Assembly: GCA_900708905.1 (NCBI GenBank)
Contig: CAADRB010000007.1
Location: forward strand, 2,773,389-2,837,388
From: Hymenolepis diminuta
Taxonomy: Eukaryota > Platyhelminthes > Cestoda > Cyclophyllidea > Hymenolepididae
Direction of reading: 5' to 3'
Length of the DNA: 64,000 nucleotides
This document shows positions 388 to 41,439 of the stretch, piece by piece. Positions within the stretch are counted from its first letter, which is position 1; the number at the start of each line of letters is the position of its first letter. The translations under genes were made by a program, and so were the position numbers. Under the pieces are notes generated by a model. It worked only from the letters and a program-made list of their open reading frames with translations. It was not told the DNA's origin and did no database searches.

Positions 388-1706
388 CCAAAGTTTTTTA
401 CTGTGTCTCAGGCATATAGGTAGAGTAGTTTGGAGACAATCTTTAGGTCACCCCAATGTGTTTACCAAAATTTTAATGAATACACGCTGATTAGGAACCG
501 TAAACATACAGCCGCCACGCCGTGTACTTTTGAAAGATGAGCAATACACGGGACGGTCTCTGCTAAAGTAATATGTGGACGCATGCTGGCTCGAGCACCT
601 GGACAGTCTAGGCGAATTTCTTCATCATAGGAACAGTCGTCAATTTTATTATTCTATAAATAGTCTTAAAAAGTTAATAAAGCGATTTTGGAGTAACTGC
701 ACATTATCTGTCTTGTCTCCCCTCTCTGAGTGTGACTGAACTGTGCCCTTGCAATATCTTGTGGGCGAATATATCAGAACCAGATCTCCTATCAGTACTA
801 CAGCATGGAAAAGTCTAATTTTACACAAATGGGTAACTGATTACCGTTCGCCTTAGTCGGAAGATCAACCGGTAGACAGGAGGAATGCTACCAAGCCAAT
901 GGAGGGTAATATCTTGATCGTTTCTTTCGCGTTATTACATCACAATGGGGATCATATACTCTTCTGGAGTGGGAGAGCTGCAAGATATAGAACACAAAAA
1001 TTAATAACATCAAGACTATATAAAGAATGATATTTCTCTCATTTCCACACATCGAGCGGTCTTGGTCTGAGTTTTTTGTGGTCACAAACTCAAGTATCCT
1101 TTCCGGTCTCCGATCCACAATATAGCCACGCCTCGGGTTATACTTCTTCGAAGCACAAAGTTGTTTTGATCGCATTTGTTCGCAATTTCAGAACGCTTTT
1201 TTTGTAGTTGCGAAATAAATTCACGACACTCGCCTGTCAACCTATATCGTAAAACAGCCTTCCTCTTGACAGGAGTGGAAAAGCTATTATTTGTCGTAAA
1301 GGGAGTTGGAATGGCTTTCATGTCACTTACATAGGTATCCTAAACCATAGGTATGAGAAAAGTAAATGTGATTATTGATGTCGGGGGTAATCGGGATTAA
1401 GAAATTCGGCTTCCTCGCTATAAATGATAAAGAACGCAGTTTAGAAATGCTTACAACAGTCATCACGAAGGCCTATGCATTCATCAATGTTGTTATGTCA
1501 GCCGCAGAGTTGGAAAATGGGACAGCCTCGCAGTTTTTCTAAGTCAGTCTGTTTTACATCTTGTCAATTTTTTTCATGAATTCTCCAAGCTATCGAAGTT
1601 TTCTATTCACTAGATGTAGCTAATTTTTTTTACACAATACGAACTTATAGTTTTGTCTTAGACTATCTAAACTTTATTTTATATTAACTCACATTTTGCC
1701 TTTCAG
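388..1706. other. Non-coding stretch upstream of the CLIP-like exons
   Basis: I see no gene that I can name here. Minus-strand open frames at 888-1175 and 1082-1321 show no recognisable domain, and the first overlaps a dispersed repeat (872-1110). The 5' exons of the CLIP-like gene should lie in or before this stretch, since the exon at 1707 begins in the middle of a codon, but none could be identified with confidence. Confidence 0.5.
872..1110. repeat. Dispersed repeat, copy 1 (pair with 9806-10055)
   Basis: This stretch resembles 9806-10055 in the same orientation. Shared blocks include ATATCTTGATCGTTTCTTTC (ATATCTTGATAGTTTCTTTC in the other copy), GAGAGCTGCAAGATATAGAA (GAGAGCTGTAAGATATAGAA), TCAAGACTATATAAAGAATG (TTAAGACTATTTAAAGAATG) and GTATCCTTTCCGGTCTCC (GTGTCCTTTCCAGTCTCC). 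The copies have diverged with small indels, and neither has a clear reading frame or defined ends. It is probably an unclassified transposon fragment. Confidence 0.75.
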
Positions 1707-4700
1707 AATCGCCGAATTCCTCCTTGATCACGGCTCTTGTTTGGAGGCCCGATCGGGCTGGGAAGACCTAACACCACTTCACCTCGCAGCCTATTTTGAC
1801 TGTCCACAAATCCTCCGTCTACTTCTCTCTCGTGGCGCTGATCCACTTGTCCGATCTGCTGCTTTGGAGGGAGCCACTCCCCTGCATTTGGCGGCTGCAC
1901 AACTCTCACTGGCTTCAGCTCGTCTTCTGGCTCCCCTGCCGCTTTCTGTGGCGTCGAACGACACCTCCCCTGGTGCAATGGAAGATCTGAATCCATTGGA
2001 ATCGCCGCTGATGTGCAAGGATGCTCTGGATGCTGCTATGCGAACGCCTTATGGTATGAATGTAATTTAATCGTATCTGTTTTTGTGAAGCATTGCCTCC
2101 TTCGATTTTTTCTTAACCTAAGATTTATTTTACATATATTGATGTACTTAAATATTAGCCTTTCAAAACATCCATTATTGAGCTACGAGTCTTTTAAATC
2201 TCAACCTTCTATATTTCGAGTGTGGTTTGTCGTCATACATTTGATTTCATCATTCTAAGTCGAGGAATTGCTGCAAAAGAATAGGCTTATCTTCAATTCT
2301 CATACTCAACGCTAGATAAGTAAGCCCAAGTTTAGTTGAGATAAATGTCAAGTGTTGTTAACAGCCAAATTTGGTCTTAAATATTAGTATATTTTCCTTT
2401 GAAATCTGATTTAATATTGCTTTCCTTTCTCTGGTAGCGGATATTACACAAATATATCCTCGACTAAACCTTAGTAATCCTCTTATAAGTTTAATTAGCT
2501 GCATAAAAGTACAATTAGCCTCTATTTGTATCCTCTAGTATAAGTTGTCCAAAAAATTAGCTGGGCTACATCCAAACTAGCAAGAACACGGGAGGTATCG
2601 CGTGGAGTTTTTGTTGAAATTGCCTTAGTAACTGAGTACGATTAACGCCAGGCCACAGGAACATTGATCACTGATTGGTCTGGGAGGCCTCTGCGCGCAC
2701 GTCTGCGCTTGCTCAACATACAATCGGTAGCACGTGCGCATTTTCCAGTGTTCTACCGCGCGCGAGATCCCTTTGGTCAGCCTTGGTAGCGTTGTACGTT
2801 CCGAGCACTATTTTTAGTGTTCACACTTTGAATTAATTATTCCAAACGGTCAATCTCGGTTAATCATACACAGGGGAAGTGATCATGCACATAATGCACA
2901 ATAAACTATTTCCGCCTATTAACGGAAACCAGTAGAAAAAAAGAAACGTCAAATGAATTTTGTCTGTTTTGCTACTTTATTCTCATTTTTTTAGTCTAGT
3001 CAGGTTTGTGAAATTTTTTATTGCAAACACTCTTAGTTAAGACGTACTTTTCTTATTTTTAAGTTTCTTAATGACATTTAAAATGTTTGAGTAAAAAATA
3101 TACGGTGTTCTAGCCAATAAAGGCGAGGAATGAAAATCGTAAGTAATAGGCCAGCTAAAATCAAAACTGTTTTACTCTTTTCTAGTAGTTAAATCCTTAT
3201 TTTGATCATCCATTTTAATGTTTTTTTTGGGATTTTGCTTTATTGTAGTAATAAATTGTTCACCAAAGGCAAAATGCAATTTTTGGGAAAAGTGACAGAA
3301 TTAAGCAAGGGATATTGAATTGTTCTAATTATTACATTTTCTTCACTCGTTGCATTATAAAGCACGAGGTCCTCTCATCTGTTAGATTTATGACCCAATA
3401 AAGTTTCATTTCAGTAAACCGATTAATAAGACTGATATGGTAAATCTGCATTTCAACTACTTTAATTTTCCAAAGCCTAGTTTCTGCTTCTGTGATGGAG
3501 GTATTCACTAGGTATCGCTAAGTTACCGTTAACTTAGGGCCATAGAGAGAGAGAAGATAGAAGTGCGGTTACCTTAAGACACTTTAACTTACCAAAGATT
3601 CTTCGTATAATTACTGTTTAAAGTTTGATCCAAAGGTGTGAATAGGCTCCTTGGCCTTGAGTTATTTTTTTGGCGTCCTGTCAGTGGCTTATACAATGTT
3701 TAATCATTGTAATTTATTTATACCTCCCTTAAATCACAGTTTTTTTTAAATTTGTCTCTGGTAATATTGTGATCGGTGGTAAAAGGACATGATATTTCCA
3801 CTATGGCTGATTTTTGTACACAGACTGCCTTCCACCAGCTGATGAACTACCGGAGCCCCTTTCCAGTATGCGGGACCGAATGGCCGAGCTTTTGGGTCCC
3901 CCAGTAGACAAGAAAACCAAACTTCAGGTGAGCATCGCTCTTAACTACTTAGGATTAGCAGACAATCACTTCTCAACATTTCTCTTTTGTGTCCAGTTGG
4001 CATTTCTGGGAGCTGGATGCAGTGTAAATTCAGGCTACCGGGTTCTACCATCGGTCCCACAGCATCTTCTTCAAGGCACTTGGGGGAGAGAGACCGCTTC
4101 GCCGTCACTTCAGCACTCCCACTCGACTGTCGACTCTTGTTCGAAGAATGCAGTGACTGGAACGAATGGATCAATAAATCCATCAGAATCGGTGCTTTTT
4201 GGTATTCTTGCACCTGCATGCAGTGCTGATGAAATTGCTGCGCCAAGACCTGGTTAGTTATCTTCCTTATAATTCATTTCCACTACATGTTATTTAGTAC
4301 TACGATATACCGATTGATTTCATTCAAAATGAATCCCATGGTTAGGGGCAACAAAAACTATTATAGTCCATGGGGTACGTAGTGATGTGTCGCAAATTTT
4401 GCTTTTACTGGATGAATAGCTGCAGCATTCTCATATTCATTTGACTTCTCTAACGGGATAAGAATAATCTTTTGTTTTTTATTATCTTACTGATATTACG
4501 AAAAGGTTCATCTCCTTGTGGGTTTTTGATTGACTCATCTTGTCGTCCATTTTATGGCACTTGAGTCGAACCTGAAAGCTGCAGATATTGAAGTATCTTG
4601 CTTAATTTTATGTTAAGTTGTTCCTTTCTTGAAAAATGATTTTTCCTCCAAAATCAAAAAGGAATCCTTTGGAAATGACATTTGATCAAAGTCGAGGTGT

Positions 4701-7700
4701 GGATTTGAGTGTACGGTTGTGTGTTCTCAAATATCCTAGTGGTCTATAAGTGTGTTTCAAATGACGGGTGAAAATGATTGAAACATAATTTGCTGCTGCT
4801 GAGCATAAATTGGTAGAATACTATCTGGTTAAGTTCAGTTGTATGGAACGGACATTTAACTTGGTCATAGGTTATTTAAAGCAATAAATGTTTAATTTGT
4901 GTTAACTTTGCGTGCGAATCACTGATATTTATGAATCGTATGGAATTTTTAAAATTAAATCATTCGCCAGTTGAGGTAAATAGATGCCTACTTAAATGTA
5001 TTCTCCATGTGATCTTATCTCGTTGGATGCAGCCTGTCCAATTTAAAGCCTAAGTATTATGTGCTATATTTGCCGTGTGGTTTTCACTAATGGTTTTCAC
5101 CATTAGTGTACCGGTGGGGCAGCGCCAAGTCGGAGGTTATGACTGTGCGCACCCAGTGATGGAGATGGGCAACTTCTCTGATTAATTTTGGTTAATAGGG
5201 GCAGTTGCATTTTGAGTTTTTATCAGAGAGATTTCATGATGCCCCTCGTACTCCCAATACGTATGTGGGTTTGTGAGTTATTATTATATTCTTACTATTT
5301 TTAATGAATTATTTTGTAAAATAATATTATTTTTTCTTCCGTAGCTGAAACTGGAGTCCTCTCACCAAGGAGACCACGTAGAGCTGCTACTGCATCCACA
5401 GAACCCAATACACCCTTTGCATCTCCTGCCCGAACTCGCATTTCAATCAATTCACCGCCACCTCCACCTCAACGCCAATCTCAAACGCAGTCTTTGCTGC
5501 CACCAGCTGTGGTCTATCCTACTCAACAACAACATCCAATGCCTCAAACCTCCGCCGTGTCCGCCAAGGTCACACTTCGAGCAATGGGACTGGCTCTTGG
5601 TGACCGGGTATGTGTTGGTCCAGGTGGTAGTGAATCTAAAGCAATCGACCCGAATTCAGTAGCAACCAGTGGACGTATGGGCCGCTTGAGGTACTGTGGG
5701 CCAGTGGAATTTGCGTCAGGAATCTGGGTTGGTATCGAATTGGATGAAGCCTTTGGAAAGAACAATGGATCTGTGAATGGAGTGTTTTACTTCGATTGTG
5801 AGGAGAAGCATGGCATTTTTGCTCCTATAGGTCGAGTGTACAAGGTCAGCCGGACAAGCGGAGAAGTTCGGCCTTGTGTTGTCGAATCAAATGGTGGTAG
5901 ACGATCTGTATCCACCCCATTACAAAATATCCCCATTGATGTTTCTCATGTTGGCGCAAAGGTAGACACTGGTGGGTAAAATCTTCCTCCTATTACCAAT
6001 GCCTCTTTTAAATGTATCTTATCCTGCCATTTTATTGTCAATTAGGTTTGCACAAATCTCAAATTTCAGAAGATTATGCACTCGGAGACAGAGTTCTGAT
6101 TGCTGGCCTTAGACGGGGAACCATCCGCTTTATTGGCGAGACTCAGTTTGCTCCTGGTAAGTCGTCTTTAAATAACTGTTATTGTGATCTATTATACTTT
6201 ATAATGTTTTGCTATTTTCCTTTTTTCAGGAATCTGGTATGGAGTGGAATTGTCAAAAGCGGTGGGTAAAAATGACGGCTCGGTTGAAGGCGTTCGATAT
6301 TTCACTTGTGAACCCAAACATGGAGTTTTTGCACCTGCTTCGCGATTACAAAAGTCATTTTTATTATTTTGTTGTTTTTTATCGTGCAAAATAACTTACA
6401 TAATCTTAATTTCCATCTAATCAGACTTCCGCCACGCACGACAAAATCTCACCTCTTGGCTACCAATAATAACATGAGCCAATCAGTGCATGCGGATTTC
6501 CTACCAGATTGTCAACGAAGGCCCCCTACTCCTGACTGTCCACGCAGATGCGTCGACAACTATGCATCTCTTGGTCGCCCCCGACCTGCAACCGCTTCTT
6601 CGAATATGTCTACTTCTGTTTACTCAAATGGGGAGGGTTCGAAAAAGAATGGCTCAGGAACAGGCGAAGAATTTCATCTGCAGATTGGAATGCAGGTCCT
6701 CTGCACTGGGGAACTTGGTTAGTTCATACGCCTTTTATATTTTCTCGCTCATAGACTTAAACAAATTACAGAATATAACGTGTTAACTGGATAATTTGAT
6801 GCGTCTGTTAATGAGTTAAGCGTCATGCTACTAACTGACGACCTGAAGTCTTTGTGATTTAGTACTTTCGGTTTTAATATATTGTTGTCTTACAGATCTG
6901 TAAGCTAAGAGTTTATTCAAATGTTCGATGACAATCTTTGAGTGTATGCAACTTGTTGACTGAAGTATTTGTTTGACAGCCGGGTGGAGTGATTTGTAAG
7001 CCATTAATCACTTTGATTTTAAGAATTTGGAAATATGCTGAGCTACCAACCTCACTAGTCAATCATACTGTGCTTGTCAGCAAGCAGAGTGAGCCAATAC
7101 AAACTTAGAACCTTTATTAATCTCATGCTGCTTTAGACGAAAGTACCCATTTGTAGGCAAGATGGCTAATTCCCTTCATTTTTGTACTCTTAAATGTTTC
7201 CTAGTACGCCCCTCTACCTGTCTTACTCTTATGAGCCTGTCATGCCCTTCAATTCCATCTTGCGTTGTCTATAACATCCAAAGTAAATCCTTATTTAGAC
7301 CATTATTCCTTCTTAATTTTTTATCGCTGGTCTTGAATGAGTCATTTTTCGATTATAGGTGTTATAGTTGACCCAATTTTCATTGTCCCTTACTTGCGCC
7401 CTCATTATTTTTTGTGGGAGAGAAAAATGAAGGCAGGAAAGAGTAAAAAGGATCTTACTCTTTCGTCAGGTTTTATTCTTTATTAATTTATTTCTATCAG
7501 TCTCGTAGATTCATTTTGACATGATTTATTAGTCGTCCTCTCCAAACGTATTGTATAATAGCTAACTCTTGGGTAGAGAAACCCGTTAGTCGATCATCCG
7601 TGGTTTCGTAGTAATTAATCAGTGCCTTTTATCTCCCTTTAAATAGCGAAGAGTCAACAAAACCGAAAGTCCATCCTTTGGTGAAAAGTGTTTACTATTA

Positions 7701-8524
7701 AACTCATGACACTTCATGAAGGCTTATCTGTGAACCTTGTCTTTTTTTCAAATTGATATGCACTTTCGGTCAAAGCGCAGAAAACACATCAAACTCATTC
7801 CGTACGATTACATTCATATTTAGATATTGAGCTGACTGTTTTCTAATCATATTTGCAAACATAAATACATAAATATAATTTAAATTTTGTACAGATTCAT
7901 CAGGATCATCCATTTTTTAAGCGGTTGTTAAGAAATTCACACTCTAGATGGGAACACTGCATGTATTCGTTGGGATGTATTAGAAACTACGTACAAAACC
8001 ACGGAGGACTTCAGGGAGGACACATCTCACCTAGTGCACATCGTTTTATATATTGTGTGAATTACAACTGATTGGATAGACAAACTAGACACATTTTAGC
8101 ACAGGAGGAGATCATTTGTACTCAAGTCGCCGTATTTCAAAAGGAATTTGTCATATGGAATGAGAGGATACAGTCATGTGCTCTAATTATATTTTATTTC
8201 CAGCGGTGTTCTCACAGAATAACGACCTTATTTTCCTTCGCCATAGGAACGCTTCGATATATCGGACCAGTAGATTTCACCGACGGCCTTTGGTTGGGTG
8301 TGGAATTACGTGGTCCTCACGGCCGACATGACGGTGCAGTCGCTGGTCGTCGTTACTTCACCTGTTCACCCAACCATGGTGTCCTCGTGCGACCCTCACG
8401 GGTGACCTTTAGAGGAATCAACGCTGTCAAGTTACTGCCACCTGGTCTGGTTGCCACCTTCGAAAGGCGACCCACTGCATTCGAAAAACCTTCGGATACA
8501 CGATCGGTCATGACGCATCCTTGA
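1707..8524 (+). CDS. CAP-Gly domain-containing linker protein 3/4-like, 3' part of gene
   Basis: The exons are 1707-2053, 3824-3927, 3997-4252, 5345-5971, 6046-6156, 6230-6353, 6425-6717 and 8247-8524. All joins keep one frame and give the last 713 residues. The first exon lacks its start and begins mid-codon after a TTTCAG acceptor, so N-terminal exons are missing. Residues 1-80 hold ankyrin repeats ([29 protein letters not shown]). A low-complexity Ser/Pro/Gln linker follows, then three CAP-Gly domains at about 320-403, 457-524 and 610-675. Their microtubule-binding motifs read GKNNG, GKNDG and GRHDG. Ankyrin repeats followed by CAP-Gly domains are the layout of CLIP3 and CLIP4, which bind microtubule plus ends or act at the trans-Golgi; three CAP-Gly domains is closer to CLIP4. 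The donor after 6353 (GTCATT) is weak but needed for phase. No AATAAA was seen in the 350 bases after the stop. Confidence 0.9.
2054..3823 (+). other. Intron of the CLIP-like gene (1,770 bp)
   Basis: This is a phase-1 intron with a GTATGA donor and a TACACAG acceptor. It is AT-rich apart from a conspicuous GC-rich patch at about 2650-2800. I see no other gene inside it. Confidence 0.85.
4253..5344 (+). other. Intron of the CLIP-like gene (1,092 bp)
   Basis: This is a phase-1 intron with a GTTAGT donor and a CCGTAG acceptor. It carries a SINE-like copy at about 5105-5185 and nothing else recognisable. Confidence 0.8.
5105..5185 (+). repeat. tRNA-derived SINE-like repeat, copy 1
   Basis: This is a decayed copy inside a CLIP-gene intron. 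It shares with the copy at 15736-15852 (read on the opposite strand) a GGTGG-G-CA start, a GAGGT block, the core GTGCGCACCCAGTGA (GATGCACACCCAGTGA there), then a GGCAAC/GGCCAAC block and a TGATTAA/TGACTAA end. The Pol III A box is poorly kept in this copy. Confidence 0.55.
6718..8246 (+). other. Intron of the CLIP-like gene (1,529 bp) splitting CAP-Gly 3
   Basis: This is a phase-1 intron between the GELG turn and the TLRYIG strand of the third CAP-Gly domain. The donor is GTTAGT and the acceptor is CCATAG. Short open frames inside it have no recognisable similarity. Confidence 0.85.
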
Positions 8525-18100: not shown

Positions 18101-20996
18101 CTACCGTTCAACTTGCTGTACTCTACCAAGTTATAAGAAGCTTAGTTAGTATTAAGTAGCGACAGATGTATCGGGTAACTCCTCATACCACGAGGCAAAC
18201 TTCTGTGTACTCTCACTACAACTAATCACGCTATATCTATGTCTTTCCACCTTGTTTGTAACGAGTTTCGTAGAGCTTATAAGAATGATAGCTTAGCTTA
18301 AACTTTGTTCCATACTAATGACTCCTAAGTTACGGCTTTTTCAAAAAATAGTAACAAGGATGCTACATCTTGGTTAGCGAATCCGGGATCTATAATTTAT
18401 TCTAAGCACCGGTGCAATAAATACTGTTATGCTGCTCAGTGACAGGCCGCGAACGAATGCCCCTAAAAGAAAACATGCATACCACATGTCGACTTAGTTT
18501 GATATCTATTTTTTTGGTTGATTTGTTGCGCAGTTCTTATATCCTGTGCCGCCTTTGTAAGTAGCTAATTTCGAAGAGTCAGAAATAAGTCTTACTCGAA
18601 GGAGGACAAATCAGCTATCACATCCTACAAAGAGTTTGTGTCCAATTTATGGAAGAACGAGGAGGGATTAGTCATTAGTCTTGGAGGAGAAGAAAAGCGT
18701 ACGATCACACTAAGCCGACGAGGCTTGGTGAGATTGTTTATCAATGTGCCAAGATTTTTTCCTTTTTCACATGTGGAATACTGCTACAAATCCCACGTAT
18801 TCACAATAGCACCTTTTATCTAATAATGCTATTACTTTTATCATAACGTCATTACTTTGTCTTAAATTTTGCTCTATTTATTTCCCTTACGGGCCGGTTT
18901 GTTGGGCTACGTAGCCTTCTACCATGGTTCGGGAGCCGCTGTTGCCGGTGATATGTTGGCAATGTATCCGGAAGATAATCGTGCATTCCACATTCGTGTG
19001 GGCTTTCTCTACACGGTGGCAGCGTCTATTCCTCTCATTCTCTTCCCTCTCCGAACAGCACTCTACAGTCTACTCTTTAAAGAGGATTTGGTTAGTTGCT
19101 TGCATCCCTTGACTACTTGTAATTATCAGTGGTATGCATGATGTTAGATTGAGCGAAGAATGCTCCCGTACGTGGAATATTCAATGCTTGTTGTGACATA
19201 TACAAATGCAGGAACGAGAGAGTTGATTGTAATTATGATTTGTTGTTTCAATGATAACCTCGAAGAAAAAAATAACTTTTCAAATATCAAGTTTCCTTTC
19301 ACTCCTATCTTTTACTCATTCTAGTTTCTACATATCTAAAATGGTTTTAATAAATTAAACCGATCTTTGATCTTCTCTTTGACCTCTTTAAGGTTGATAT
19401 GAGATGCTGATAGATTGTCTATTTCTATTTACCAACTCAAGAAACTTTCAGCAGTAATCATTCAATTTCATTTTAATCTACCACAGAAACCTTGGGTCTT
19501 GAGACTATTTTCCAATTGATATAAGACGAGATTCTCTAATTGATCGTTTTTGCATTTTAATGCCCTTATTTTAACGTAAACACGAGGGATTCCATTTAAT
19601 TATGTTATACCCACAGATTTACAGACATCAGAGAATCGAACATTCTCAGCCTCAATAATAGCTTTATTTTTAAAAGAATCAGGATAGATATGCTCTTAAA
19701 ATGCATTTGGAGACTACCTAATTAAATGTTACATGGGTGTCAGGACTCTGACATTTGCCAATGTCGATTGAATTTACTCATTAAGGACTTATCAAGTGGA
19801 AGCTCTAGTATCTCTGTATTATTAATTTTGTCCCGTTTAAATTCATTAAGTAGTTTTCAGACCACGCTCATATCGTTTTCCATTAAGGATTCATACGTTT
19901 GGCAGACGTGAATAAAACCTCAGGATGTATTCTGTCCGCTCCAAGACACTACAAGTGGTAGGTGTTACTAAATCTAGCGGTTTGACACACTAACTGCCTT
20001 TTGACTGCTTTTCAGGAAGTCAATGTGATTTTCAATGAACTACGTGACCACTGAAATAAAACTACGACTGCGTTTGATTTAGACCCAGTTCACTAAGAAG
20101 GAGCCAAAAATACCGAGGACGGTGTTTTAATTGTATTAAAAGTCGTTTGGTACCATCGATATATGAAGATCAAGTCGTATTAGCTTTGTCCGTTTATCCT
20201 AATTGAAGTGCCTTTTACCCTATCAGGTTTATATTGTGTATCTTTTTGCTACGCGACTCTAAGTCATGCTTATCTCAGCACTTATGATTTATGGCGTTTG
20301 CCGAACTACCCTTTTTTAAATAGCATAATAAGCACCTTACTGTATATTAAAGTTTAATTATTTTTATCAGTTAAAATTCCTGTCGTAAATTTCAATCAGC
20401 ATTTTCTCGCTATTTTTTAGTATGAAGAAGGACCGCTCACAGTTCAATTTCCGCCAACTATTCCAGATGTATATTTCCGGTATCTTACTCTGGGCATCAT
20501 ATTCCTCTCCATGATAGCCAGCCAGACCACAGATAGAGGTAAGTCCTGCTCATTTATTGCTTCATTACAAAATTTACAAAAAACTCTAAATCTAGGACTC
20601 TTTCAATTGGGTTATATAAGGATGCCATTGACAATTTCAAATTGGTTTACTTTGTTTATGGCATCGCATTGGCCTTTTCTTCTCCCATCTATCCTTATTA
20701 TTCTTGACCTCAGCAATATTATGTTTTCATTGGCTAAAATTACTCAATTTGTTATAATCTAATTTATACTTAGTTGAACTTTGATATTTCTAATTTTAGT
20801 TGAGGTAATCCTGACATACACTGGTGGATTGGCAGGAGGAGCTTGTTGTTATCTTCTTCCGGCAGCAATTGGTGCTCGAGCTCTTGGCGTTCGAAAACGA
20901 TCGCTCGAAATGGGATTAATGATCCTCCTTCTTTGCGGTCTCGGTGTTTTAATACTTCTCAGTCCATTTCTCACTTTCCTTGGTGTAGACGTGTAG
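12142..20996 (+). CDS. SLC38A10-like sodium-coupled neutral amino acid transporter
   Basis: The exons are 12142-12156, 12192-12284, 12316-12433, 12472-12644, 12681-12875, 12911-12996, 13076-13178, 18893-19090, 20421-20538 and 20800-20996, for 431 residues with every junction in phase. The protein is almost entirely hydrophobic membrane segments. It follows the vertebrate SLC38A10 transporter core in order: NLINSNIGVGLLAMPYCF (unwound TM1 region), AFKSHGVAGKRIVD, a GDLGS-like ISDLGSEIFD, FIVLPFCCLRR, LVHCVPIIASSVCCQ, NSIYSSLRNPSV, GLLGYVAF, VGFLYTVAASIPLILFPLR and a final ILLLCGLGVL segment. It lacks the long hydrophilic C-terminal tail of vertebrate SLC38A10. The family moves neutral amino acids across membranes; the substrate here is not known. 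The five-codon first exon is the least certain part. Introns 1-5 are 31-38 nt, while intron 7 is 5.7 kb and needs a GG acceptor at 18891-18892. Other SLC38/SLC36 members are possible, but A10 fits best. Confidence 0.88.
13179..18892 (+). other. Large intron of the SLC38-like gene (5,714 bp)
   Basis: This is a phase-0 intron with a GTAAGT donor. The acceptor position expected from phase and homology reads TTACGG/GCC instead of an AG. It contains a SINE-like copy at 15736-15852. Open frames within it, such as 14851-15135 minus and 18638-18823 plus, resemble no family I know. Confidence 0.8.
15736..15852 (-). repeat. tRNA-derived SINE-like repeat, copy 2 (best preserved)
   Basis: Read on the minus strand it starts GGGCTGGTGGCACC and has a tRNA-like A box (TAGCTAATGTG). 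About 30 bases later it has a B box (GGCTCAATGCC, against the consensus GGTTCGANNCC). A shared body follows: ATCGATGCACACCCAGTGAG, then ATGGCCAACCGCACTGACTAA. This arrangement of Pol III boxes at the head of a short dispersed repeat is typical of tRNA-derived SINEs. It sits in intron 7 of the SLC38-like gene. Confidence 0.65.
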
Positions 20997-23395: not shown

Positions 23396-24299
23396 CTATC
23401 CTAAAATGAAAAAATGAGTTGAGATAAATTCAAATACTCGCGAGAGAGAAAGTATAAACAACCTGTATGTTTCCTTGTTGAGTGGATTTTCAGAGCTTGA
23501 ACAGTAGCAAAAGACTGATTACAATATTTGCAAGAATGCTTTGGCACGGGTTTCGGCTGTTCATGAACAAATTGACAATGACGATTATAGCTTTGCAGAG
23601 TGGAAAATAACTTTCCGCACCGGAAGCAGAACTTAGCTAGTCCATCTAAAATAATACAGCATTCAATTCAACATTTTTACTTATTTTTTGCTAGTAGCAT
23701 TCACTTTAATTTAAACCAATTTGAATTTACCTCCATGAGTTAGATCATAATGAGCCTCCAGCAGTCGCCTCTCATCAAAAACTGCAGAACAACTAGAACA
23801 CCTGTAGGGGACTAGAATATAGGATACATAATAGAGAATGTTGAAACAAACCATTATGAGATGTTTTTAGGTGATCAAGGAACTCGTCATAATTATCTAT
23901 TGGTTTTCGACAATAAGAACAAGGTTGATCGCATTGATGAATACGAGCCTTATGCCGAAAGAGGTTACCATGATCTTTAAACCTCTGGTGGCACATATCA
24001 CAACCAACCCATAAGATTTTTAAACCCGAATCTGGTGCAAAGATTAAAAAATGGAAAAGAAGTAATACTATTTTTAAGGATATTCGACGGTTCATATGGG
24101 GCATCAAGGATATTTAATTTAGCCAAAGGATGCCCCCACTCTGAAACCGAAAAAAATTGATAAAATAAAAAAGGTATTACATATGTACTTAAGCATACGA
24201 AAAACACTCACCTTCAAGAGCTTTTTGATGATATCCATCTATATTTTCAATCCAGACACGTTCAATAAGTGAATCGATTGATGAATCATCAAAATTCAT
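23396..24299 (-). CDS. Five-finger C2H2 zinc finger protein
   Basis: Minus-strand exons in reading order are 24299-24212, 24140-24069, 24031-23852, 23811-23731, 23645-23463 and 23400-23396, for 202 codons plus a TAG stop. All five introns interrupt after the first base of a codon. The N-terminal 54 residues (start MNFDDSSIDSLIERVW) contain no finger. Five fingers follow, all with spacing C-x2-C-x12-H-x4-H, starting CDMCHQRF, CSYCRKPI, CSSCSAVF, CFRCGKLF and CKYCNQSF. Most lack the TGEKP linker of classical DNA-binding arrays, so both DNA/RNA binding and protein contacts are open. I cannot assign it to a named family. The last exon supplies only five coding bases (GA plus TAG); if the final 59-nt intron is retained instead, about 20 further residues are added. 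The intron at 24032-24068 is only 37 nt. Each internal splice site has GT and AG ends. Confidence 0.85.
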
Positions 24300-36316: not shown

Positions 36317-37439
36317 ATGTGCGATATGGCATTCTGATAGGCTAAGTAAACCTATAGCTGTAAAAAAGTTGAAGAAAAGTAAAAGGATTTGATCCGTGAG
36401 AATAAATACTCTCAATCTGTTGGTTTTTTAAAAAAATTCTTTGGAGATACTAAGGTTTCTAATGTCATTATTTAAGATGCTATTCTCAAAAACTCATATC
36501 TTTCACAAGATTTAAAGTAATCGGATATTGGGCACCGGAAGTTCTTGTTGATCATTGCGCCTAAGGTGCATTGATACAGTCGATGACGCGCAAAGGAACA
36601 TTCGCAAACAGTTGGCAGCTGTGCTCTTCACCCTTTCGCTCGAATTCTACTAAGGTGGTAATGTTCACTTTTGGAGGCAGAAATTGGCATCGCTGGCTAT
36701 TTTAGCCATAACACCCGTTCAAACCAAAGACTTCCTTGGCACCTTGATCGATTTGTCCTATTTATGACTTTGCCAAAGCCTTCTTTCAAGTTCTCAAAAA
36801 AATTTTTAGGGTAAGATAACTGGGACTTCTTTCAATCAACTTGAATATGGCCAAAAAAGGCTAAAATAATTGATCAATTTCAAGTCGATAAAAAATCTTG
36901 GAGAGAATATTCACCAGTATTTGAGATAAAAGTCAGTGATAACATCTAAATAAGCAAAAAGCTTGACGATCAAAACAAGGGATGATAAATTTGAGCATAA
37001 TTAAGAGAGGGATAAAATGCCTAACATTACATAGTTAGTTAAATCGAAAGTGAAAAAATAACAGAATCAACAAAGTGGAATGCCACTGATGCCTATAGTA
37101 AATTTTAAATTAATGCAGTTGGTAAATAAATAAAGGATTACAGGAAGTATGCGCTTAAACAATTAATAGGTTTTTCAATAAAATTCAGATAGTTAAAACT
37201 AAGAACCCTCTCATATTATTTAAACAACAAGAAAATTCTAAATGTGATTCGTCTAACGAATTTATTTATCTTGGCAGAACATCAAAAACTATGAAAATTA
37301 TAAGTTCATAAAGAGGGCCTATTTCCACTTTTAAGAGGAAGATTTAAGGCAGTAGAAGTAAGATTCAGGAAATCAGGAGAACTCTACTTCATCTTAATTC
37401 CAGAATCGTCAGGCCAACTGGCCCTTCGAGACGAAGATT

Positions 37440-38792
37440 TCAGACATTTTTTTTCTTTTCATCATCCTGGTTTTCTTGCTGAAACTCTGGATAACAAGCT
37501 TTCATGTGGTTTCGTAGCCATCTTCTTTTCACACTATTCTTGTAGCACCTATCTAGTGGCCAGGGGAGACTATCAGTTGGTAGACCATCCTAGGGTTTAA
37601 AGTGATCGATTTGTCTGTGCCTATCCATATCACTTTTACTTGCAAAGGGTGGATGACACCATCGGATAAATATGATCAAACTTATAATACTTGAAAAACA
37701 AAATTTTTGTTACTATTAACAAATGCTTGCATATTGACGTAATAAATCGATTAATATTTAGGAACAAATTTAGGCAAAAATATCTACTGAACGCAACCTA
37801 ACAATTGAAAAAATTGAACAAATACTACAGTTCAAATTCATCCCTTTTCAGTAAAACTTAACCTATTCCAGAACCTCAGTTATCACACAATTGTTTAATT
37901 TACCATTTATTTTTTTGCAAAAGGATTATACTAAGAAAATTATTGGGATAAAAGAACTTGGGATTAGTGCTTTCCGAAGGTTTAAAAACATCTTTTAAAA
38001 GCCCAAACCGAATGTTGGCACTCTATACTCAAAATGCTCATGCACAAATGCAAACACGAATACTTCAAGCAGCATTTATTTATCAAAAAGGTAAATTTTG
38101 ATAGTACAAATTAGACAGTGCACAAAACCTTTAGCCATGTATTTTGAGAAAATTCTAAACGAAGTTGAAATTAATTTGGAAGGGTGATTTGCCACCCCTG
38201 CTTCTACTTGTTCCTATACTTCGGAGAAATTCTTTAGCATCACAGGGACGGTTTATGCAGACTTTGGTAACAAGGCGAACAAATAAGAAGGTCTTATCTT
38301 TGCAGGCATTCCAAAGATTGTTTACCTCAGGCTGGGTTACATTGACGGTGAAACTTGTGACTTTTTCGTGATCAGTAGTAACGCCGGAAAGGAAAGAATC
38401 TTGATCAGGACTACAGTGCATATGGCAGAACAGATCCCGCATCAGCTTATAGCATTTGCTGCAAAGTTAAGAATATGAATATTTTTAATATAAGTTTAAT
38501 ATTCAGATTCATGCTAAAATATCAATACTTACCCTCCAAACCAGCGGCGGCCCTCATGCAAACCTTTCTCTAACATTTTGATTTGATCATCATTGCAGCA
38601 TACATTAGAACCAGTGGGATATTTAGGACAGAGTTTGTGAACTTTTTTAGTTGCTTTTAGATAACCGATGTTGGCCGGAAGACAAACATGGTTTCTTTGA
38701 CTTCCACAAATACCCTGTACAACACAGGTAGCATTAATAGAAACAATTATTGCGAAAAATATCACAAAAACGATCCCGTATTTTACCATCAC
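37440..38792 (-). CDS. Stand-alone NPC1 N-terminal (sterol-binding) domain protein, secreted
   Basis: Exons are 38792-38533, 38458-38161 and 37589-37440 (235 residues). A hydrophobic signal peptide (residues 1-21, KYGIVFVIFFAIIVSINA) is followed by the Niemann-Pick C1 N-terminal domain: CVVQGICG, KLCP, VCCNDDQIKML, YKLMRDLFCHMHC, NNLWNACKD and SPFQINF match the vertebrate domain in order. In NPC1 this luminal domain takes cholesterol from NPC2. Exons 1-2 hold 12 cysteines matching human C25, 31, 42, 63, 74, 75, 100, 109, 113, 160, 177 and 184, which are six complete disulfides. Human Q79, which contacts the sterol hydroxyl, is kept (Q70); N41 is V36. Exon 3 joins in phase and has PLDRC and KAC about where human C227 and C243 lie, then a charged tail and a stop. 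No membrane segments follow. Without the last splice the protein ends at 38155 after 187 residues; AATAAA occurs after both ends (38075-38080, 37261-37266). Exons 1-2 are firm; exon 3 is moderate. Confidence 0.8.
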
Positions 38793-41439
38793 TGATAAAG
38801 AAAAAAATGCAGGTTAATATTTTAATATAAAATTAGTACAAACGACGTGGAATAATACTAAATAATAATATGATAAACTGATTTCGCTTGAAAAAAAAGA
38901 AATTTATATTAAATGATTTCTTTATTTTATCCCACCTGATGATTAAGGCTAAGATTTGATCGCAAGAAAAGTGAGCACTCCCTGCTCTTAAAAAGGGACT
39001 GATTAGCAGAACTCGAGACCGAGTCATTAAAACACTTTAAAGGCTTTTATTAATATTCAATGGTCTTTGTTTAAAAATAAAAGAACGCTGATATTGAGGG
39101 AATTTAAAAATAGATTATACTAAATTTCTAAAAAATTATTATTAAGGTGAGATGATTTGTTCCGCTGCATACATCTACATATTTTGCAAAATGAATTGCA
39201 AATTGTACTTGTTAATTAAGTTATTCTAGCCTTAAAATTTAATATATATATATTTAATTACGAGCACTTTATAATAAGGTCGATTTTCATCGTACGTTTA
39301 CTGTATTATTTGCGCATAACTTGCATAAGCGTCATCATAAAATGATTAAAACTTTTGTTTTATTTTAATGTTGCTTCTAAATTCAATATTTATATATTAA
39401 AACTTCTCGAACTCCACACATTTATTTATTTATCCTCTTGCTACATGTCACATATGAATAAGTGGATGATTTTTTTTGCCTCAATAATTATCTGATTTTA
39501 AAGTGAATCCACTCCCCTCATTCTTGTTCTCCAGGTATATAGCTAAAGAAAATATTACCATATTACATATAACAGACATATGTCTACAGTCAAATTTTGT
39601 TTATTTTCCTATTTAGAATATTATGAGTACCAATAAACCTTTACTTGTTAAATAAGAGCTTAGTCCGCAGTTGTCGAACAATAAATTAAATCACTTATAG
39701 CTAACCATAATTATACCAATACATTTTCAGAATACCTTGTCTTAGGAAGAAAACGGCATATTCTGTAATTTGCATTCAGAAATTTATATTCAATTTTTTA
39801 ATTACTGAACCCAGAAAATAAACCACAAAATTTTCACCACTAATCTGGGATCAAGAAATATCATCATAGAAAATCTGCGATTAGAAACTCGATTTCTTCT
39901 AGCCTCATTTATTAATCAGTGAGGTGAATAAAAATCATTGATGTATCTTGAGAGCGTGTCAATTGAGTGACAGAAAGGACCACAGAAAACATCAAAAATA
40001 ATTTTAATATCAGGTTAAATAATATTATATGTAAGTTTAAAGTTAAATGGGACTTCAGCTAGCCCTCATGTTTTTCGTTACATACACGTTATTTCATTGT
40101 AATATGCATTGCCATTCCATTGTGTTTTGCATTATCAACTATATACATTTACCACTATTGGTTATTTGAAAGTATGAAACTGATGGCAATATTAAATAAA
40201 TCTATGGCTGTGCTATGTCATATCTACTAACAAAATGAGTTTGTGAACCAAGTCCCTTTTGTCTCCTTATCTTCATCTGATACAAAAAACTGATAGGATC
40301 ACCTCAAGGATTATCAGATGTACTCTAGACAATGAGCAATTACGGAAATATTATCCAAAATAGCTTTTAGTTCAGTCACTATAATTACCTTAGGTGCCCA
40401 GTTACGTTAGGTTAAGAAATATCTCCTTTCAACACTAATAGTCTTCCTAAGGAATAACAGGATACAACACCCTTTTCATATCAGAAAGGCATGTTTAAAT
40501 AAAAGAGATGAGTTAGGAACTTAGATTTGAGGTATTAACGCAGTGAGTGACAACCGGATAATGATATAGAAGATAAATCGGAGTTGATTGTTAATTTCTT
40601 TTATTCCTCTGATAAACAACAATTAACAACCATCGACTGGAAACTATTGTGTATTCACCTCATTCTTTGTAAATACTACCATAAACCAAAGCATATCCAT
40701 TCATCTCTTGCTTTTCATACCTAGATTTCAACATAATAAATAGATTTAAAGTATTAGCCCGTATAACGATATCCATCGGTGGTTTTCCCAGCCGATTGCA
40801 AGAAAAGTAAAGTTTAAAATCCTATGAAGATGATGATGAAAGACACTGGGTCCATTCTTTGGACGGATGGACTTTTCATAGGTCAGGTTACCTTTATCAT
40901 CGGTACAAATGTGTAGACGGTATCAGCTTTTCATTGCTTGTCTAACAGATACAGCCATCAGTGCTTAAGCAGTCAATCCTTAAAAACAGCCAATGTCAAG
41001 AGAATAAATTATCCGAAAGATAAAGTGCTCCTCTCTTTATTCGTTTACCTGACTTAATTCAACAATAACTTCAGCATTATTACGAGGTCGTTTAGTTAAA
41101 AGTAGTAAATCTAAACGGTTGTTTGAAAGTGACGAGAAAGGAATCTAACTTAATACAGTTATTGCTGCACGAAAATACGAAAGCATGATAACGAAATAAT
41201 GGTAGTGAACAGAATCAGGCCAGCATTGAAGCAGAATGTACAATAAAGGTTACTCGGAAATCATTCTTTATTGGCACCTTCAATTTCCCTCAATAAAGGC
41301 AGACCAATAAACTCTAAACCTATTGAAAAAATTTGTTTCCCAATATCCATAATAAATATATAGAGGTATTTAAAAGTCTCTGATAGAAGTTCTCAAGCTG
41401 TCAAGTTATGTCAGATTCGAAATATTTTGTGGATAAATC
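38793..41439. other. Intergenic, AT-rich
   Basis: I see no gene or recognisable repeat here. The minus-strand open frame at 38833-39027 is upstream of the NPC1-domain gene and has no family similarity. AATAAA on the minus strand at 41267-41272 could serve the candidate exon at 41440-41640. Confidence 0.5.

Follow-up and report, generated by a model that had tools for sequence, protein, structure and literature searches.

A predicted stand-alone N-terminal domain of the NPC1 family, conserved in hymenolepidid tapeworms

A 64,000-nucleotide stretch of the Hymenolepis diminuta genome (assembly GCA_900708905.1, contig CAADRB010000007.1, positions 2,773,389 to 2,837,388; hereafter the window, lying on the contig that we call C7) carries on its minus strand a small gene, here gene C, which by its sequence is a genuine stand-alone N-terminal domain (NTD) of the NPC1 family headed by a predicted signal peptide. 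Work on the NPC1 NTD treats it as the arm by which a large membrane transporter binds sterol. We interpret protein C, with a probability of roughly 0.6, as a conserved single-domain NPC1-family member of hymenolepidid tapeworms that would serve as a soluble carrier of sterols or other lipids, as the original prediction for this DNA had reasonably proposed. Tapeworms must take sterols from their host, and protein C is a candidate lipid-uptake protein in these dependent parasites.

Gene C consists of two coding exons joined in phase by one GT-AG intron, giving a spliced frame of 186 aa (Table 1). Its product matches the Pfam domain NPC1_N (PF16414) over profile positions 3-184 of 244 with E=1.6e-19, its 71 bits exceeding the cut-off of 27. 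This Pfam match and the in-phase exons bear out the original prediction of a signal peptide followed by the NPC1 sterol-binding domain and then a stop; its two exons also stand, with the bounds of the gene corrected to the ATG at 38789 and an end at 38155. The maximal 19-residue Kyte-Doolittle mean is 2.79 at the N terminus and 0.75 elsewhere, and over the whole 186 aa this measure revealed no strongly hydrophobic stretch beyond the signal peptide. The pyrimidine tract immediately upstream of the start codon is possibly the 3' splice site of an intron in the 5' untranslated region or a site of spliced-leader trans-splicing. A run of 186 stop-free codons has p ~1.2e-6 under local trinucleotide frequencies. 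When codon use was trained on the exons of the two paralogues described below, and flanking DNA was assumed to be non-coding, the coding score of the C frame (~1.5) exceeded those of all 1110 flanking windows and frames, the highest of which is nearly equal at 1.49.

The fold was approached through a related H. microstoma protein, P0005, which itself scores 62.8 bits against NPC1_N. Its AlphaFold model is a confidently predicted NPC1 NTD domain A, and it matches the human NPC1 NTD (PDB 3gkh) end to end over human residues 23-210. Both by structure and by sequence, the top matches are NPC1, NPC1L1, and NCR1. In the alignment, protein C, which is 26-27% identical to human NPC1, retains Q79 and P202-F203 (human numbering) and ends at about human residue 208-210; it therefore lacks domain B, and it also lacks the stalk and the membrane segments. 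Compared with full-length NPC1, NPC1L1, and NCR1, it is without the membrane, sterol-sensing, middle, and C-terminal lumenal domains, as judged from hydrophobicity and from searches of contig C7.

According to passages of PMC7215871, the human NTD has the pairs 25-74, 31-42, 63-109, 75-113, 97-238, 100-160, 177-184, 227-243, and 240-247; for NPC1L1, passages of PMC3078110 describe six bonds within domain A and two within domain B, with a ninth, C113-C254, that links both and corresponds to C97-C238 of NPC1 by our own numbering shift of 16. Protein C has 12 cysteines after its signal peptide, all of which align to the six human domain-A pairs, in keeping with the six complete pairs claimed at the outset, and six domain-A disulfides are thus predicted from the alignment. 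Equivalents of C97, C227, C238, C240, C243, and C247 are missing, and with them three of the nine human disulfides. The original prediction had placed a glycine at the C97 position and found no counterpart of C238; the absence of C238 holds, but two alignments show a short deletion beside glycines at C97 instead of a clean cysteine-to-glycine change.

The genome provides the context in which these absences are best read. Six-frame, exon-by-exon searches covered 170.6 Mb in 203 contigs, a procedure that strongly diverged exons could escape. NPC1_N matches fall in three genes, namely gene C and two paralogues, A and B, on contig C2; one further weak match, on contig C3 (E=1.5), was taken as chance. 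At E<=0.001 the genome has seven matches to the sterol-sensing domain (contigs C2, C59, and C6), seven to the NPC1 middle domain (C2 only), and four to Patched (C2 and C6). Contig C7 has none of the three at this threshold, which extends to the whole contig the earlier report that membrane segments and a patched domain are absent downstream of the gene; the idea that gene C is one piece of a larger NPC1 gene split up along this contig was rejected on the same grounds. Paralogues A and B are arranged head to head, with about 16 kb between them. The NTD of each splices in frame through GT-AG introns into the first membrane helix (TM1), and although only this NTD-to-TM1 part was spliced, each has middle-domain and sterol-sensing matches farther along its strand, so that A and B are apparently full-length NPC1 relatives. 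Since two separate NPC1 genes of this kind exist, gene C is not a broken copy of the only one.

Paralogue A shares with C the NPC1_N domain and the first intron, but it differs in keeping all 18 human NTD cysteines and in continuing into TM1 and the downstream domains. Paralogue B, ~30% identical to C, is membrane-anchored and yet lacks precisely the same six cysteines as C; it has no cysteine between the last one of domain A and the end of TM1. A Rodentolepis nana relative of B that also runs through TM1 (P0001) lacks these six as well and has one unrelated cysteine in its linker. The linker that precedes TM1 in B, besides being cysteine-free, contains a run of threonines. The paired loss of C97 and C238 had been put forward as a mark of a protein adapted to act alone. 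The comparison with B does not support this, and we rejected the paired loss as a sign of a free protein: the 97/238 loss accompanies the loss of domain B and so carries no such signal. Because C97 and the domain-B cysteines are missing from B and P0001 too, the simplest view is that the C97-C238 bond was lost before the membrane part or independently of it. The comparison further suggests that even an NPC1 relative anchored in the membrane can do without this bond and domain B.

The best new support for gene C being real comes from conservation of its end residue. Of 725 candidates in a profile search of a protein database, with a six-row alignment as query, 58 proteins reached E<=1e-5; many of these come from short contigs and could be fragmentary. 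In this search the proteins nearest to C are from Hymenolepis, and three of the 58 belong with it: P0005, P0039, and P0044 (Table 1), the latter two incomplete at the front. P0039 is from H. weldensis, a cyclophyllidean cestode of the Hymenolepididae. P0005, already present in nr under an NPC1 name, is likewise stand-alone; it keeps all 12 cysteines of C and the final residues SPFQINF-F-V, and differs in one extra cysteine after the signal peptide and in a database model that starts 12 residues upstream. The domain-end motif occurs in 35 of 61 collected proteins, and only P0005, P0039, and P0044 stop, like C, exactly 13 residues from its start. Since related tapeworms keep the gene with the same end point, it has the look of an intact gene, encoding a genuine secreted lipid carrier, rather than of a broken one, and the earlier view that this is no broken NPC1 gene is upheld by these relatives and by the two other NPC1 genes. 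Two other searches gave less. One with A, B, and C as queries turned up two proteins of A type and one of B type, with no relative that stands alone, and one with protein C alone gave 23 candidates, none at E<=0.001, and missed P0005 despite 18 exact shared 5-residue words and an E of 4e-95 when the two proteins are aligned directly, an unexplained miss that leaves little meaning in the absence of relatives from such a single-sequence search. Among the matches listed, no paper in the open-access literature described an NPC1 NTD that stands alone in tapeworms. Several mammal-like fragments in the collection (among P0055 and P0057-P0061) run from the PF-x-I strand into intron-like sequence, and vertebrate NPC1 may therefore have an exon boundary where the tapeworm protein ends.

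These results bear on two ways in which gene C might not be what it seems. The transcript could continue, splicing past the stop into a third exon or other exons that encode domain B or a membrane anchor; a GT at 38160-38159, just 5' of the stop, would allow this, and the original prediction had offered an exon 3 that restored a pair near C227-C243. That exon falls in a dispersed repeat: the stretch 37430-37640, which contains an open frame of roughly 50 codons, matches 40 genome places (40 of 62 candidate places were scored), 39 of them elsewhere at 69-81% identity, and thus has at least 39 further copies. The exon was accordingly rejected as part of gene C. With a poly(A) signal directly after the stop, relatives that end at the identical residue, and a contig on which the searches gave no middle-domain, sterol-sensing, or Patched match, a continuing gene is barely credible. 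Alternatively, gene C could be a partial duplicate of NPC1-B that is decaying or yields no functional product, as might be suspected from its truncation relative to NPC1 and from its having one intron fewer than the NTDs of A and B over the same stretch. The open frame, the coding score (narrowly the highest locally), the 12 of 12 cysteines retained in an H. microstoma relative that is 63-64% identical and has the same end residue, and the two further relatives with that end led us to reject a pseudogene, which we consider very improbable.

The gene structures and phylogeny address the origin of the C family. All three genes share intron 1 in position and in phase (2), whereas the next NTD intron (phase 0), common to A and B, is absent from C, whose exon 2 corresponds, without an intron, to NTD exon 2 plus the start of NTD exon 3 of the paralogues. 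A tree of 12 sequences recovers the C family as monophyletic, with SH-like approximate likelihood ratio test (SH-aLRT) and ultrafast bootstrap (UFBoot) values of 99.4-99.7/100, and is sister to B with values of 94.7-96.8/90-91 (LG+G4 and WAG+G4). Grouping C with human or with fungal sequences is rejected under LG and WAG (p ~0.014) and unrejected under LG+C10 (p ~0.10). The C family is thus probably sister to B, the favoured sister group comprising paralogue B and P0001; the shared cysteine losses also point this way but could be convergent. On this view, favoured and not proven, C would stem from an ancestor shared with the membrane paralogue B in which the C97-C238 and other domain-B bonds had already been lost.

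As a carrier, protein C would be secreted or delivered to the endolysosomal lumen, would hold one sterol or similar lipid in a pocket with Q79 and a P202-F203 edge, and would ferry this lipid across the aqueous phase to NPC1-A/B or a membrane, much as NPC2 does. The comparison with NPC2/ML-domain proteins is a proposed analogy, as small soluble secreted sterol carriers; they form a separate family, with one PF02221 match in the genome (contig C63), and no PF02221 match was found in protein C at E<=10, a search in which HMMER filters drop most matches above ~0.1. The retained residues are consistent with a sterol-type pocket. Passages of PMC10777396 describe simulations in which NPC1L1 Q95, equivalent to NPC1 Q79 by the same shift of 16, hydrogen bonds with the sterol hydroxyl, and changing both P202 and F203 to alanine prevented cholesterol binding (passages of PMC6062155). 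The excerpts of PMC7537887 contained nothing on NTD pocket residues. With respect to need, passages of PMC5955594 state that Echinococcus granulosus lacks key enzymes of cholesterol synthesis, and passages of PMC5036155 place an NPC1 protein among the positively selected lipid-scavenging genes of Taenia asiatica. Neither squalene epoxidase (PF08491) nor the C-terminal domain of squalene/oxidosqualene cyclase (PF13243) gave a match in the H. diminuta genome, although each search was positive in 2 of 14 control genomes, with no flatworm among them.

Several observations weigh against this interpretation. Normalized by query length, Foldseek TM-scores reach only 0.65-0.71 against NPC1-type NTDs. 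The W27 position is V or M in the C family, the L175 position, which we take to line the pocket of the NPC1 NTD, is K or H, and the T112 position is H in C and P0005 and Q in P0044. The NPC1L1 equivalent of T112 by the same shift of 16, T128, lies in the pocket, and its mutation is counted with those that impair transport (passages of PMC10777396). Because these three positions are changed, cholesterol itself may not be the ligand of C, and the ligand is uncertain since T112 is changed although Q79 and P202-F203 are kept. Moreover, the unattached human NTD that works is membrane-tethered (NTD-TM1) and not soluble (passages of PMC6062155). As to origin, the approximately unbiased test prefers C with B and leaves C with A and A with B unrejected (p-AU 0.067-0.106), and an earlier six-sequence tree supported C with B at only 67.

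Three other functions were weighed against that of a sterol or lipid carrier. Protein C could stay unexported and work with NPC1-A/B, or compete with them, inside the lumen of the secretory or endolysosomal system, by sterol hand-off in trans or by buffering, an idea that overlaps the carrier interpretation and differs from it in the place of action. In passages of PMC6062155, a human NTD on a separate membrane-tethered chain restores transport together with the rest of NPC1, and an NTD can pass sterol to another NPC1 molecule, both of which favour such a role; the separate NTD in that work, however, is tethered and carries a lysosomal targeting sequence, and we regard the lumenal role as possible, if doubtful. 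Rather unlikely, and more speculative, is that a B-type NPC1 pocket domain has become a free exported shuttle for host- or bile-derived steroids other than plain cholesterol, NPC2-like at the host-parasite surface, having lost the clamp of domain B along with the membrane machinery and, as part of the same proposal, changed its pocket (T112 to H, L175 to K/H). The fold of the NPC1 NTD is common to folate and riboflavin binding proteins, and the pocket of the soluble NTD of C might have been re-purposed to hold a vitamin-like ligand or a hydrophobic one that is not a sterol. Protein C scores 27.2 bits against the folate receptor family (PF03024, Folate_rec), under the cut-off of 29.8. It keeps, however, the sterol-linked Q79 and P202-F203; its best matches are NPC1, NPC1L1, and NCR1, and a separate match of folate-receptor type lies on another contig of the genome (PF03024, E=2.7e-25, contig C140:527942-528337, minus strand). 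A re-purposed pocket is unlikely. If protein C is the soluble carrier that we favor, this conserved and, by prediction, naturally soluble tapeworm domain would be a ready test case for the function of an unattached NTD, which has been tested with engineered membrane-tethered fragments (passages of PMC6062155).

Table 1. Features of gene C and its surroundings (window positions), paralogues, and database relatives
Feature	Location or length	Strand	Remarks
Gene C exon 1	38533..38789	minus	257 nt, ATG at 38789, ends in phase 2
Gene C exon 1 content		minus	Signal peptide and equivalents of C25/C31/C42/C63/C74/C75, by alignment
Putative signal peptide, residues 1-20	38730..38789	minus	Cleavage point inferred
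Gene C intron	38459..38532	minus	74 nt, GT-AG, phase 2; GAGG/GTAAGT ... TTTGCAG/CA
Gene C exon 2 (terminal coding)	38155..38458	minus	Equivalents of C100/C109/C113/C160/C177/C184; final strand SPFQINFNFV
Gene C stop TAG	38157-38155	minus	From the sequence
AATAAA poly(A) signal	38075..38080	minus	75 nt 3' of gene C stop, then GT-rich sequence
Pyrimidine tract with terminal CAG	38792..38811	minus	Two bases 5' of gene C ATG
Dispersed repeat, outside gene C	37430..37640		Genome-wide match search
Paralogue A	contig C2, ~1270-1286 kb, exon 1 around 1270.1 kb	plus	NPC1_N, middle-domain, and sterol-sensing matches
Paralogue B	contig C2, ~1231-1254 kb, start 1254307	minus	NPC1_N, middle-domain, and sterol-sensing matches
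P0005, H. microstoma	198 aa		nr 'Niemann Pick C1 protein'; 63-64% identity to C (64% over 99%), E=4e-95 in direct comparison
P0039, H. weldensis	99 aa		79% identity to C in search table; 77/84 aligned residues after trimming
P0044	95 aa		52% identity to C

The window contains several other coding features. Upstream of gene C and on the same strand, an exon at 42165-42443 matches ATP synthase subunit H (PF05493, E=3e-10) and presumably encodes the V-ATPase e subunit. On the plus strand, an ankyrin-repeat exon and two CAP-Gly exons lie within 1651-8521, and we take this gene to be probably a CLIP-type microtubule-binding protein. A weak match to amino-acid transporters (Aa_trans), below the cut-off, lies at 18866-19138 on the plus strand, and a C2H2 zinc-finger exon at 23796-24113 on the minus strand.
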